Assembly: GCA_034189865.1 (NCBI GenBank)
Contig: JAXHTV010000009.1
Span: forward strand, 1 to 64,000
Source: Pseudomonadota bacterium
GTDB lineage: Bacteria; Pseudomonadota; Gammaproteobacteria; UBA5335
Direction: 5' to 3'
DNA: 64,000 bases
In this document: positions 13,217 to 57,723 of the stretch, one piece after another
Position numbering within the stretch: the first letter of the stretch is position 1
Layout: every line of letters starts with the position of its first letter
Notes under the pieces: generated by a model
Database searches by the model: none
The model's input: the letters and a program-made list of their open reading frames with translations, nothing else
What the model was told of the DNA's origin: nothing
Position numbers and translations under genes: made by a program

Positions 13217-15448
13217 CTAGAGCGTGTCGCAGGGGTCAACGTCCACCGACCAGCGCACCTGGCGGGCTGGTTTGCTTTCGGCAATCCTGTGGATCCACGG
13301 GGTCAAAAGTGCATGAAGTGTGCCGGGACTGTCCGCTTGAACCAGCAGCTGAGCCCGGTACCGTCCGGCACGACGATGCATGGGGGCCGGCACCGGTCCC
13401 AGGAGCAGGCATTGGGAGTCCAGCCGTATTGCTTCCTGACGGGCCCAGCTTAAGAACGCCATGGGTAGCTCGGCTTGGCTGGCCTCCGCGCGCAGCAGTG
13501 CAATGCGCGTGAACGGTGGCCAACCGGCGCGTTCGCGCTCGCCTAAAAGCGCGCGCGCGAACGCGCCGTAGCCTTGTTCGATTAACAGGCCGAGCATTGG
13601 GTGGTCGGGGTGGTGCGTTTGAACTAAAACCTCTCCCTGCCGCGCGTGGCGTCCGGCACGACCGGCTACTTGGACGATCAATTGTCCTAAGCGCTCGCCG
13701 GCTCGAAAATCGGTGCTGTAGAGCCCTTGATCGGCATCGAGGACAGCGGCCAAGTTAACGTTGGGAAAGTGATGTCCTTTGGCCAGCATTTGAGTGCCGA
13801 TAAGAATTTGGTAGTGCCCGGCGCGGATTTCTGTGAGCAGTTTTTCCAGCGTGCCCTTTCGCTGGGTGGCGTCCCGGTCCACTCGTGCGATACGGGCGTT
13901 TGGAAAGTGCTGCTGCAGCGCATCCTCGATACGCACGGTTCCGGATCCGATCGGTTCCGGGGCAGCGTCATGGCAAGCGGGACAGTCGGTGGGCACCGGT
14001 GCGCGTTTGCCACAGTGGTGACAGCGAAGTTCGCCAACCATCGTGGCCTGGTCGCGGTCAGGGTGGACTGTGTAAGGTGAGGCGCAGCGTTCGCACTCGG
14101 CGATCCAGCCGCACGCGTGACACCGCAGAATCGGCGCGAAGCCCCGTCTGTTTTGGAACAACAGGACTTGGCCGCCGTCGCTGAGATGTTCTCGCATTCG
14201 TGTCAGCAATGTGGGGGACAATTGCGCCTGCGCTCGTACGTGTCGCATGTCGACCAGATGGACTTTCGGCGGTGCGATACCGGTTGCTCGCTTGGACAGC
14301 TTGAGATGACTGTAACGCCCGGTGATGGCGTTCTGCAGCGTTTCCAATGAGGGTGTCGCGGAACCCAGAATGACCGGAATGCCAAGGCTCTTTGCACGCC
14401 AAACGGCGATATCCCGCGCTGAGTATCGAAAACCGTCCTGTTGTTTGAAGGACGGATCGTGTTCTTCATCGACCACCATCAGCCCAGCGTTCGGCAAAGG
14501 TAGGAATACGGCGGAACGGGTGCCGACGATAAGGCGCGCATCGCCCGATTGGGCATCCAGCCAGGCTGTTTGTCGTTGTTTTTCTGTCAGCCCGGAATGA
14601 TAGAGCGTGAGCGGCTGGTCGATCCGAGCACGGAATCGAGCCATCAGTTGGGGTGTCAGGCCAATTTCGGGTACCAGGACCAAAGCTTGTTTTCCTTGGG
14701 CGAGCGTATCCAGGATGGCCTGAAGGTAGATCTCGGTTTTACCGCTGCCGGTGACGCCGTCTAGCAGAAATGTGCAATAGCCGACGCTTGAATGAATTTC
14801 CGAGACGGCGGTGAGCTGGTCGGCCGTCAAGTCCGGCGGCGTGGCACCGCTGACCGGGTCTTCTGATTGAGAAACGTCCTGCCCGTGTCGACGTTGAATC
14901 CAGCCCCGTCGCTCAAGGCGGCGGATGGGGTCGGAGACCTCACCCAGGGTGGCCCTGAGCTGCGCCGGGGTGAGCCCCTGGGGGTGGTCCCTTAATGCCA
15001 GTAACACATCCCGTTGGCGGATAGCGCGGCCCCCTAATTGCTCCGTAAGGGCGGCCGCGCCATTGGGCGTCAAAACCCAATGAAAAGGGAGACGGCGTTC
15101 TGCAGGCGCACCCTGGCGCAATGGTCCGGGTAATATGGCCGCAAAAACCTCACCTGGGGGGTGGTGGTAGTAGCTGGCGGCCCAAACGGCGAGTTGGGTG
15201 ATATCCGAGGGCAGAAGGGGCTGCTCATCGATCAGCGCGATGATCGGCCGAAGTTTCGCGTGCTCGACATGGGGGCGTTCTTCCAGCGATACGATGATCC
15301 CGACGGTCTCTCGGCGACCGAGAGGGACACGAACGCGACAGCCCGGTTGAATGGCAGTGTTGGCGTAACCGGTTGGCGGCAGATAGTCGAGGTAAGTGCG
15401 AAGGGGGCTGGCAACGGCGACCCGAATAATGGGAGATCGGCCTATCAT
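13217..15448 (-). CDS. priA: primosomal protein N' (replication restart helicase)
   Basis: Superfamily 2 DNA helicase that reloads the replisome at stalled or collapsed forks. The 743-aa product has the N-terminal 3'-end-binding domain, Walker A GVTGSGKTEIYL (about residues 230-241), DEEH box, SATPS motif and the zinc-binding cysteines (CHACGWIAECERC, CHHCG and CPAC). The C-terminal helicase motifs include VAGRAGR. The length matches the family. It is transcribed alone; its promoter region contains a triple DnaA-box cluster. In many gammaproteobacteria rpmE is the neighbour, but here rpmE is 40 kb away. Confidence 0.97.
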   Translation of the reverse strand: MIGRSPIIRVAVASPLRTYLDYLPPTGYANTAIQPGCRVRVPLGRRETVGIIVSLEERPHVEHAKLRPIIALIDEQPLLPSDITQLAVWAASYYHHPPGEVFAAILPGPLRQGAPAERRLPFHWVLTPNGAAALTEQLGGRAIRQRDVLLALRDHPQGLTPAQLRATLGEVSDPIRRLERRGWIQRRHGQDVSQSEDPVSGATPPDLTADQLTAVSEIHSSVGYCTFLLDGVTGSGKTEIYLQAILDTLAQGKQALVLVPEIGLTPQLMARFRARIDQPLTLYHSGLTEKQRQTAWLDAQSGDARLIVGTRSAVFLPLPNAGLMVVDEEHDPSFKQQDGFRYSARDIAVWRAKSLGIPVILGSATPSLETLQNAITGRYSHLKLSKRATGIAPPKVHLVDMRHVRAQAQLSPTLLTRMREHLSDGGQVLLFQNRRGFAPILRCHACGWIAECERCASPYTVHPDRDQATMVGELRCHHCGKRAPVPTDCPACHDAAPEPIGSGTVRIEDALQQHFPNARIARVDRDATQRKGTLEKLLTEIRAGHYQILIGTQMLAKGHHFPNVNLAAVLDADQGLYSTDFRAGERLGQLIVQVAGRAGRHARQGEVLVQTHHPDHPMLGLLIEQGYGAFARALLGERERAGWPPFTRIALLRAEASQAELPMAFLSWARQEAIRLDSQCLLLGPVPAPMHRRAGRYRAQLLVQADSPGTLHALLTPWIHRIAESKPARQVRWSVDVDPCDTL

Positions 15449-15486
15449 TGAGTTACTTTAGCATTATCTTGAATTCTGAGCGTCGA

Positions 15487-15521
15487 TTATCCACAAAATC
15501 TGTGGATAACTATGTGGATTA
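15487..15521. promoter_or_regulatory. triple DnaA-box cluster upstream of priA
   Basis: Perfect DnaA box TTATCCACA at 15487-15495, then 5 bp, then a perfect box in the opposite orientation (TGTGGATAA, 15501-15509), then 3 bp and a third box with one mismatch (TGTGGATTA, 15513-15521). The same arrangement with identical spacing recurs at 56158-56192. It lies 39-73 bp upstream of the priA start. It may regulate priA, titrate DnaA, or act like the DARS core; the sequence alone cannot decide. Confidence 0.8.
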
Positions 15522-15749
15522 AAACCGGCGAAATACCGCAAGTCCCCGTCAGCGTTGGTTCTGTTACGGATTGATGACATTTTACCCTTTTTTAAACAAG
15601 TTCAATTATTACAATGGCTTGCGGGGTAATTTGAAGATTGGAATTCAGCAACGCGCGCTATGTCAGAATAGTTTCGTATTTCGCAGCGTTGTGTGCATAA
15701 GTTTTTTAGGGACTTGGGCGGTTTTTCGACGCTACCACGGTAGCGTCAT

Positions 15750-15777
15750 AAAAAAACCGCCCTCAAAGAGGGCGGTT
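15750..15777 (-). terminator. intrinsic terminator of the pnt operon
   Basis: Perfect 10-bp stem (15755-15764 with 15768-15777) and 3-base loop. On the minus strand it is followed by a run of seven T (15756 down to 15750). It lies 30 bp downstream of the pntB stop. The distal arm also matches an upstream GGGCGG copy at 15716-15726, giving an alternative longer hairpin. Confidence 0.92.
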
Positions 15778-15806
15778 CAAAGAAGCTAAAAGACCACGGG
15801 TTTCGA

Positions 15807-17225
15807 TCAAAATTCTTTGATCGCGGAGATGAGTTTCGCGGCCACTTCCTGCCCGTCGCCGTAGAGCATTCGCGTATTGTCGAGCGTAAACAGCGCGTTT
15901 TGTATACCGGAGAACCCGGTTCCCTGGCCGCGTTTGATGACAATGACGTTTTTCGCTTGGTCGGCATTGAGGATGGGCATGCCATAGATGGGGCTTTCCG
16001 GATTGGTCCGGGCCATCGGATTGACCACGTCGTTGGCGCCGATGATCAAGGCCACATCGGCGGTCCCGAACTCCGTATTGATCTCCTCAAGGTCGTAGAT
16101 CAAGTCATAGGGCACGCCCGCCTCGGCGAGCAGCACGTTCATATGACCTGGCATCCGACCGGCTACGGGGTGGATGGCGAATTTGACCTTCACACCACGT
16201 CCGATCAACTCCTGGCACAGTTCCCACACTTTGTGTTGGGCTTGAGCCACGGCCATGCCGTAACCGGGCACGATCAATACTTTTTCGGCGTAGGCCATCA
16301 TCACCGCTGCATCCGGTAACTCGATGGGTTTCATCGTGCCACCCGATTCGCCGACCGCTCCGCCTTCACTGGCTGCACCGAAATTGCTGAACAGGACGTT
16401 GGTCAACGGCCGGTTCATCGCCTTGGCCATGAGTTGAGTCAGCAGACTCCCGGCGGCACCAACCACGGTACCGGCGATGATCATGGCCGCGTTCTGCAGC
16501 ACAAACCCTTCGAACGCCACGGCCAGGCCTGTCAACGCGTTATACAACGAGATGACCACCGGCATGTCGGCGCCCCCAATGGGCAGCGTCATGGTGATCC
16601 CGAGGATCAGCGACAAAGTAAAGAAAAGCAGAATCGCGAAACCGCTGGCGTCAGCGCCCGCGTTGACGATGTGCAGTCCGAGGAAAGCGATGACGACGAA
16701 CAGGCCGAGATTGACCCAATGCTGGTTGTCGAAACGGATCGTCCGTTCGATCAATCCCTGCAGCTTTCCGAAGGCGACCAAGCTCCCGCTGAACGAAACG
16801 GTACCGATCACGCCACCGAGTACCGCGAGTGCGACCACCACACCTTCATGTGGCGTGCCAGCGCCCAGTTCCACTGCAGCGATCGCCGCGGCGGCACCGC
16901 CACCCATGCCGTTGTAGAGGGCGATCATCTGTGGCATGTCGGTCATGGCGACCTGTTTGCCGCTGACCCACGCCGCACCTCCACCAATGGCCATGGCCAA
17001 TAACATGAAGAAGTAAGTGCCGAACCCGACATCCGAGCCCATGTCGGGATGGAAGAAGGTGACCAGGGTTGCGACCACCATGCCGGCACCGGCCCAAAGA
17101 ATCCCGTTACGGGCGGTCTTGGGTGACGACATCCGTTTCAGGCCGATGATGAACAGGAACGCCGTCGCGAAGTAGGCGATGTTAATGAGCGTATTGGCGA
17201 AGGAAGGAGCGACTTCTACGGCCAT
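15807..17225 (-). CDS. pntB: NAD(P) transhydrogenase subunit beta
   Basis: Membrane and NADP(H)-binding subunit of proton-translocating transhydrogenase, which uses the proton motive force to make NADPH from NADH. The 472-aa product has about nine membrane helices in the first 270 residues. The C-terminal NADP-binding domain includes GYGMAVAQAQ and HPVAGRMPGHMNVLLAEA. The length is normal. Its ATG overlaps the stop of pntA2 by one base, indicating coupled translation. A strong terminator follows, so pntA1-pntA2-pntB is a complete operon. Confidence 0.97.
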   Translation of the reverse strand: MAVEVAPSFANTLINIAYFATAFLFIIGLKRMSSPKTARNGILWAGAGMVVATLVTFFHPDMGSDVGFGTYFFMLLAMAIGGGAAWVSGKQVAMTDMPQMIALYNGMGGGAAAAIAAVELGAGTPHEGVVVALAVLGGVIGTVSFSGSLVAFGKLQGLIERTIRFDNQHWVNLGLFVVIAFLGLHIVNAGADASGFAILLFFTLSLILGITMTLPIGGADMPVVISLYNALTGLAVAFEGFVLQNAAMIIAGTVVGAAGSLLTQLMAKAMNRPLTNVLFSNFGAASEGGAVGESGGTMKPIELPDAAVMMAYAEKVLIVPGYGMAVAQAQHKVWELCQELIGRGVKVKFAIHPVAGRMPGHMNVLLAEAGVPYDLIYDLEEINTEFGTADVALIIGANDVVNPMARTNPESPIYGMPILNADQAKNVIVIKRGQGTGFSGIQNALFTLDNTRMLYGDGQEVAAKLISAIKEF

Positions 17226-56036: not shown

Positions 56037-56397
56037 CTGCCGTTCCTCTGACCCAGACTGTTCCAGGCTGCCTCGAAGCGGCCTGGCTGCCTAAAAGAAC
56101 CGCGAATCATACCGGCAAATTTATACGCCGACAAGTTGTGATTTTCGATCCGGCGACTTATCCACAAATTTTGTGGATAAGTGTGTGGATGAAATCGTGA
56201 TAAATCACTTAAGTTCGCGCCCCACAGGTATCTTGTGCTCACTGGCAAGTTTATGCGCAACGCTAACCCGCCGATGTTATTGGAATTTTTCTTGACTTTT
56301 TGAAATATCACGAGAGTCAGGCGTTTTTCCGGGCTGTCCCCTTGGCCTGTGAATAAGCCACGCGGTTAAGTTCGTTTTGTCAACCGCCAGCGGGTTG
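56037..56397. other. 361-bp intergenic region upstream of rpmE
   Basis: Between the hemW stop and rpmE start. It holds the DnaA-box cluster at 56158-56192 and an AT-rich stretch near 56277-56310 (TTGACT near 56292 could be a -35 hexamer on the plus strand, but no plus-strand gene follows). No protein or RNA gene is supported. Confidence 0.55.
56158..56192. promoter_or_regulatory. triple DnaA-box cluster upstream of rpmE
   Basis: Perfect DnaA box TTATCCACA (56158-56166), 5 bp, perfect reverse box TGTGGATAA (56172-56180), 3 bp, and a third box TGTGGATGA (56184-56192) with one mismatch. It is the same architecture, orientation and spacing as at 15487-15521, with 32 of 38 bases identical from the first box onward. 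It lies 122-156 bp upstream of the rpmE start. Confidence 0.8.
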
Positions 56398-57576
56398 CTA
56401 GTGCCCCGTCGAGTCCGTTGGCATGAACTGGACGAGTAGTTCGTTGAGGTATCGCAGCCCGAGTTTTGTTGGTGCGATGTGGGTTCCGTTTGTGATGAGT
56501 AGGCCGAGTTCGCGTGCCCGGCTCAGGCCGGAGGCTGCGGCGCTCGCGGCCAATCCCGTTCGCTGCGAGAAGAGCGCTAGGGTCGTGCCGTCGATCAGCC
56601 GGAGTGCGTTCATAAAAAACTCGATCGGCCGCTCCGATGGGGCGACGAATGTGGTAACCGCGCAATCGCCATCTGCGATGGATCGGAGATAAGTTTGTGG
56701 TGAACTCGGCTTGGTTGTGCGTACGATGGTGTCGCCGGTGATATCGGTGACTTTTCCGTGGGCCCCTGCCCCCAATCCCAAGTAGTCGCCGAATTCCCAG
56801 TAATTTAGGTTGTGTCGGCAACGCGTTCCTGGGCGAGCGTACGCCGATATCTCATAGCGGGCCAATCCCGCTGCGGCGATGACCTCAAGCGATTGCTGGT
56901 GCATCTGCCAGGCGGTGTCATCGTCCGGCAGGTTTGGGGGGTACTGGGCAAACACGGTGCCGGGCTCAAGTGTCAGTTGGTAGTGCGACAAATGACCGTC
57001 GCCCAGCTCACACGCCAGTTTTACGTCGGTCACCGCTTCCGCCACCGTTTGTTCGGGCAGAGCGTACATCAGGTCGAGATTGAACGATTCGAAGCCCGTA
57101 GCGTGCGCCGCTTCGATGGCTTTAAAGGCGTCTTGTCGGTCGTGAATGCGCCCCAGGCGCGCCAGATGGCGATCGTCAAAGCTTTGGATGCCGATTGAAA
57201 GCCGGTTGACGCCCGCTTGCCGGAAACCTCGGAACCGGTCTGCATCGGCTGCTCCAGGGTTGGCTTCAAGGGTGATTTCAACGTCGTCCTCGATTTTCAG
57301 GCGGTTGCTGATGCCCTCGAGCAGGACGGCGATGCTATCCGGAGAAAAAAGGCTGGGCGTGCCGCCTCCGATAAAAATGCTGGATACCTCGCGATCTGAA
57401 AGCGGTAGTTGCGCTAGATCACGCTCCAGGTCTTGTAGCAGTGCGCTGATGTAGCTTTGCTCAGGGATTTTGCCCGGACGTCTGGTGTGGGAGTTGAAGT
57501 CGCAGTAAGGGCATTTCCGTACGCACCAGGGTAGGTGTACGTAGATGCCCAGTGGCGGCGGTTTGAGAGGGGTCAT
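56398..57576 (-). CDS. hemW: heme chaperone HemW (radical SAM)
   Basis: Radical SAM protein of 392 aa that binds heme and delivers it to respiratory enzymes; formerly mis-annotated as oxygen-independent coproporphyrinogen oxidase. The cluster motif is CVRKCPYC (Cys18, Cys22, Cys25). The heme-binding HNxxYW motif reads HNLNYW in RHNLNYWEFGDYLG, which supports chaperone over HemN function. I start at ATG 57576 (MTPLKPPPLGIYVHLPWC); the open frame continues 21 codons upstream. It follows rdgB by 147 bp on the same strand, as in many gammaproteobacteria. Confidence 0.95.
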   Translation of the reverse strand: MTPLKPPPLGIYVHLPWCVRKCPYCDFNSHTRRPGKIPEQSYISALLQDLERDLAQLPLSDREVSSIFIGGGTPSLFSPDSIAVLLEGISNRLKIEDDVEITLEANPGAADADRFRGFRQAGVNRLSIGIQSFDDRHLARLGRIHDRQDAFKAIEAAHATGFESFNLDLMYALPEQTVAEAVTDVKLACELGDGHLSHYQLTLEPGTVFAQYPPNLPDDDTAWQMHQQSLEVIAAAGLARYEISAYARPGTRCRHNLNYWEFGDYLGLGAGAHGKVTDITGDTIVRTTKPSSPQTYLRSIADGDCAVTTFVAPSERPIEFFMNALRLIDGTTLALFSQRTGLAASAAASGLSRARELGLLITNGTHIAPTKLGLRYLNELLVQFMPTDSTGH

Positions 57577-57723
57577 GGTGCTGCTTCGCTGCACGCGGTG
57601 AGGCTCAGGAACCGCTGTTGTGTTCCAGAGCGAGTGCATTGTGCCGCAGTCGAGGCGGATCCGGGATCGCTCGTCGGTGGGGGTTTGTTCGCCCGCGAGC
57701 GCAGTCGGTAACCACGTCGGGTT

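Follow-up and report, generated by a model that had tools for sequence, protein, structure and literature searches.

To our knowledge, the control of the DnaA-reactivating sites (DARS), which promote ADP release from DnaA, has been dissected almost solely in E. coli, and there the two sites DARS1 and DARS2 appear to follow different rules; datA has the opposite effect, the hydrolysis of ATP-DnaA. In E. coli K-12 the DARS1 core lies between bioD and uvrB and reads TTATCCACT-ATTCC-TGTGGATAA-CCA-TGTGTATTA, and the DARS2 core lies between rppH and mutH and reads TTATTCACC-TTTTC-TGTGGATAG-AGT-TGTGAAGAA; the 35 bp of the latter are exactly those enclosed by the published primers for deleting boxes I–III (PMC4585315). 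ADP release is described as requiring the head-to-head pair of boxes I and II (PMC10380432). Activation by IHF and Fis is proven for DARS2, and DARS1 is described as IHF-independent (PMC4245941) and as under no known regulatory pathway (PMC5010248). Promoters of E. coli with double DnaA boxes (mutH/DARS2, polA and purH) have a same-strand pair 3 bp apart like boxes II and III (PMC11317965); those among them that are defined by this pair alone have no head-to-head box I, distal IHF and Fis sites or box IV. Upstream of mutH, about 316 bp from the start of the DARS2 core, we also noted a third, weaker E. coli triplet with the same +/5/−/3/− arrangement, TTATCCCAG-CTTTC-TGTGGATAA-CAT-GGTGTAAGA (NC_000913, ~2969451–2969485; L004:1452–1486).

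The window, a gammaproteobacterial stretch of 64,000 nucleotides, contains two elements whose core orientation and spacing (box I forward, 5 bp, box II reverse, 3 bp, box III reverse) are identical to those of DARS1 and DARS2. In element 1, a perfect box I (TTATCCACA, 15487–15495, + strand), placed as in the E. coli cores, stands head-to-head across a 5-bp spacer with a box II of the same perfect sequence (15501–15509, − strand), which is followed after 3 bp by box III with one mismatch (TAATCCACA, 15513–15521, − strand), as the original prediction had described them. The AT-rich stretch that it had pointed out at 15569–15625 contains two further sites: a Fis-consensus palindrome (GATGACATTTTACCC, 15573–15587, +86 from the start of box I) with three mismatches and a score of 14.0 bits, where the 99.9% level of the background is 5.8 bits, and an IHF-like site (TTACAATGGCTTG, 15609–15621, + strand, +122) that has two mismatches to WATCAANNNNTTR and the top PWM score within its 3-kb locus. 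A fourth box, the perfect R box TTATGCACA, lies at 15692–15700 (+205) on the − strand, which is that of boxes II and III. The core is upstream of priA (replication restart helicase; 13217–15448, − strand; NCBIfam NF004067, 937 bits, above cut-off), whose start codon is about 39 bp from box I. On the other flank, a terminator-like hairpin (15754–15778, − strand) 3′ of pntB stands just past the module, followed by pntB itself (NAD(P) transhydrogenase beta; 15807–17225, − strand; top family match, below the curated cut-off).

Element 2 has perfect boxes I (56158–56166, + strand) and II (56172–56180, − strand) and a box III with one mismatch (TCATCCACA, 56184–56192, − strand), the sequence that is most frequent for box III across the class. 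A weak Fis-like site (GGCAAGTTTATGCGC, 56244–56258, 8.2 bits) is again found at +86, there is no clear IHF site, and box IV, the perfect R box TTATTCACA (56348–56356, − strand, that of boxes II and III), is at +190, roughly a helical turn closer to the core than its usual +200 to +207. The core lies about 120 bp upstream of rpmE (ribosomal protein L31; 55833–56036, − strand; TIGR00105 above cut-off; end taken from the stop after 55836), and hemW (heme chaperone; 56398–57639, − strand) turns its 3′ end towards the element. Each element occupies an intergenic stretch of about 360 bp, and the modules fill the priA–pntB and rpmE–hemW gaps.

The pattern TTATCCACA-N5-TGTGGATAA-N3-TGTGGATNA has exactly two matches in the whole 2.9-Mb source genome, at 15487–15521 and 56158–56192, both in the window; the many random copies that would have spoken against the original prediction did not appear. 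Searching with the box I/II part alone and two mismatches allowed returned the same two places only, a reversed-pattern control gave 0 matches in this genome, and the window's perfect TTWTNCACA boxes, six in 64 kb, all fall within the two clusters. The original prediction was correct about the cluster at priA, but it had missed both the second copy and the fourth box after each core. Like DARS, the elements are few (two per genome) and intergenic, with boxes I and II head-to-head, boxes II and III on the same strand, and spacers of 5 and 3 bp.

The core is found far beyond the source genome. With up to two mismatches it occurs in 297 of 370 sampled Gammaproteobacteria genomes, and with up to three in 44 of 56 relatives, with no match of the reversed pattern in either set. 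Of 299 genomes from the whole phylum 141 match, and the matches outside the class fall mainly in a single family (f191), with a few other families besides; genomes of f191 have up to 8 cores, and most other families outside the class have none.

Companion sites were analysed in 209 elements from 124 genomes, a non-random sample comprising those first listed and fetched, with distances counted from the start of box I as 0. A Fis-consensus palindrome with up to three mismatches is present at +85/86 in 133 of the 209 (background ~0.6 per position), and an IHF consensus with up to one mismatch at +119 to +122 in 99 (background 0.7). The strand of boxes II and III bears an R box at +200 to +207 in 105 (background 0.27). 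Since the palindrome was assigned by its match to the consensus, it is best called a putative Fis site. Box IV reads TTATGCACA, TTATACACA or TTATTCACA in 101 of 107 cases and, unlike boxes I and II, never TTATCCACA (0/107); in most elements it is 81–85 bp from the IHF site. When each of 66 families was represented by the element carrying most parts, Fis was found in 40 and IHF in 43, compared with maxima of 3 and 2 in 300 shuffles. The sequence between the parts is scarcely conserved (mean of 0.06–0.29 bits per column versus ~1.5 in the core boxes), thus indicating that the fixed layout does not merely reflect recent copying. A layout of about 215 bp, consisting of three DnaA sites, an apparent Fis site, an apparent IHF site and a fourth DnaA site at fixed distances, is therefore recurrent across Gammaproteobacteria. 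All three extra parts are present in 56 of the 209 elements, and element 1 likewise carries Fis, IHF (imperfect) and box IV, with box IV and the weak Fis-like site in element 2. Since 34 of the 209 have none of these parts, the core by itself may also suffice, as has been published for DARS1.

Several genomes depart from this arrangement. G049 (L024, L052–L057) and Legionella erythra (L312, L330) have 6–8 cores that lack the customary companion sites (Fis, IHF and box IV), and several cores of G049 instead have an R box 95–120 bp away on the opposite side, which is a different architecture. In G031 (L049, L050) elements have the IHF site at +64/65 rather than +120, which is another variant spacing, and two of these stand in tandem. 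Tandem cores 270–690 bp apart were observed in G013 (L031), G041 (L081) and G216 (L130), with both copies upstream of priA in the first two.

The same pattern search revealed DARS1 relatives at uvrB with IHF sites at +121 in Pantoea, +120 in Aeromonas and +122 in Rodentibacter, the last of which also has box IV at +206. In E. coli DARS1 itself there is a weak IHF-like site (TTTTAACTGGTTA) at +121 and a one-mismatch box (TGTTAAAAA) at +203, but no Fis consensus at +86; the E. coli copy is thus without clear IHF or box IV sites, whereas its relatives keep the IHF site near +120. Measured against this DARS1-type layout (IHF ~+121, box IV ~+203 to +206), element 1 has a two-mismatch IHF-like site at +122 and box IV at +205, and element 2 has box IV at +190 and no clear IHF site. 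Like the window type, DARS2 has IHF and Fis sites and, some 210 bp from the core, a distal DnaA box, but the parts differ in order and phase: DARS2 has IHF at +109, Fis at +186 and, on the + strand, box V at +211, compared with Fis +86, IHF +120 and a box IV at +190 to +207 that is on the − strand and almost never TTATCCACA. Pantoea DARS2 has the E. coli positions and Photobacterium DARS2 has Fis at +195 and the distal box at +220; the DARS2 layout was not found in the window or class-wide elements. As these part orders differ on an identical core, two layouts share one core. The window elements, at priA and rpmE, are not orthologous by place with DARS1 (uvrB) or DARS2 (rppH–mutH), and the E. 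coli priA–rpmE gap was rejected as an orthologous site because it has no such core.

We propose that both elements are sites of the DARS type, which promote ADP release from DnaA with the assistance of IHF and Fis, and that they represent the ancestral form; judged from the sequence comparisons, we give this explanation as a whole a probability of roughly 70%. Membership of the DARS class is its well-supported part, and here the DARS-like reading of the original prediction is borne out at the sequence level by the DARS1/2 geometry, the two copies, the conservation across the class, and the fixed IHF, Fis and extra DnaA sites. A mechanism can be envisaged in which ADP-DnaA would bind boxes I and II head-to-head, with box III stabilizing the complex as at E. 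coli DARS. IHF at about +126 would bend the DNA, with Fis at about +93, and the bend would let DnaA on box IV (~+205) fold back onto the core; this assembly would free apo-DnaA, which could then rebind ATP. Protein binding, looping, ADP release and an effect on initiation are what we infer from this arrangement. The source genome encodes DnaA (TIGR00362) and, as an ADP-DnaA-generating system, Hda (TIGR03420), both above cut-offs in a profile search. It also has ihfA (IHF-alpha, above cut-off) and, beside purH, a gene for a Fis-family protein of 102 aa that scores just below the family cut-off (88 versus 99 bits).

In about 55 of the 124 genomes priA has the core upstream of it; named carriers are, among others, Ectothiorhodospiraceae, Cycloclasticus, Methylomonas and further methanotrophs, and Pseudoxanthomonas. 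In 18 genomes the core precedes rpmE, with hemW next in most. Box I faces priA in 56 of 56 priA-adjacent elements within 600 bp, although this fixed orientation may come from descent rather than function. Nothing on DnaA boxes with priA or rpmE was found in the open literature, and both layout and place are new to the literature searched, which excluded a list of DARS-like sequences that the original DARS paper, Fujimitsu 2009, reportedly has. Where a divergent rpmE adjoins priA (Pseudomonas, enterics, Photobacterium, Alteromonas and Halomonas) there is no core at priA, and those of these genomes that were searched whole have cores elsewhere; conversely, 14 of 14 genomes with a core at priA (up to three mismatches) show no rpmE there. 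A shared ancestral priA–rpmE gap as the source was rejected, as the core is absent from priA in the named or MAG genomes with a divergent rpmE close to it, a pattern that is suggestive but confounded by phylogeny. This origin is also disfavored because one asymmetric element cannot turn box I to both genes.

These places, with box I always towards the gene, would fit a transcription switch in which DnaA at the triplet turns priA (and rpmE) down or up, so that restart capacity and the synthesis of L31 follow the DnaA cycle, with no role in ADP release. ChIP-seq in E. coli is consistent with this, as DnaA prefers box pairs 2–3 bp apart at regulated promoters (PMC11317965). We nevertheless consider a switch unlikely. 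Among relatives the core-to-priA distance ranges from 36 to ~420 bp, which argues against simple promoter occlusion as a conserved role, and more than half of the elements adjoin other genes, many of them with the same parts at +86, +120 and +204. The head-to-head box I with its 5-bp gap is, moreover, specific to DARS. Nor is the proposal that the cluster covers the priA −35 region supported so far, since a consensus scan of 15400–15800 revealed no sigma-70 promoter.

Still less probable is a DnaA sink or datA-like site, which would titrate DnaA or, with IHF, speed up ATP hydrolysis and keep initiation down. A dense cluster of near-perfect boxes beside an IHF site is suggestive of this, and datA likewise combines DnaA boxes with one IHF site that it needs; however, datA, judged by its description, lacks the DARS core that both elements match and has its essential boxes 2 and 3 flanking the IHF site (PMC4585315). 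Two clusters per genome would also titrate few molecules.

DnaA boxes, IHF, Fis and AT-rich DNA occur at oriC too, but we give almost no credence to the elements being an origin or an origin remnant. An oriC lies next to dnaA/dnaN in a single copy, whereas the window elements are two and lie on contig C9, with dnaA on contig C6 and no such core near it; this reading was rejected on these grounds. In ten complete relatives the elements are 4–46% of the genome away from dnaA, often with one at 4–13% and one at 28–37%. The stretch from dnaA to a yidC-like gene (C6:89894–90646) has no perfect R box, the sole one near dnaA being at 88478 on the far side, which implies that the true oriC has unusual or weak boxes. 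Chance clustering, for which only the low specificity of single boxes speaks, is refuted by the genome search, by reversed-pattern controls of 0 in every genome so tested and by the companion sites at fixed positions, in agreement with the original prediction.

Returning to the DARS-type explanation, the most plausible view of the window arrangement is that of an ancestral, DARS1-type form of the Gammaproteobacteria, from which E. coli DARS1 seems to have decayed and DARS2 to have been rearranged. A wider hypothesis, to which we assign even odds, is that the ancestral DARS was a loop-forming machine of about 215 bp (core, Fis +86, IHF +120 and box IV +204), kept by many lineages at the priA promoter, that would couple the recharging of DnaA, and possibly also the expression of priA, with IHF, Fis and growth phase; DARS1, hitherto regarded as unregulated, would then be a decayed relic and DARS2 a re-ordered form. 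A layout fixed within a few bp over dozens of families provides a structural model open to testing, in which IHF bends and Fis assists a loop that the fourth DnaA box closes, and offers a reason for the difference between DARS1 and DARS2. It should also allow DnaA-recharging sites to be found directly in unstudied Gammaproteobacteria, and the recurrent place at priA raises the question of whether replication start and replication restart have a common regulator. DnaA-recharging control, long studied mainly in E. coli, thus looks, on these genome comparisons, to be widespread and more elaborate than described.
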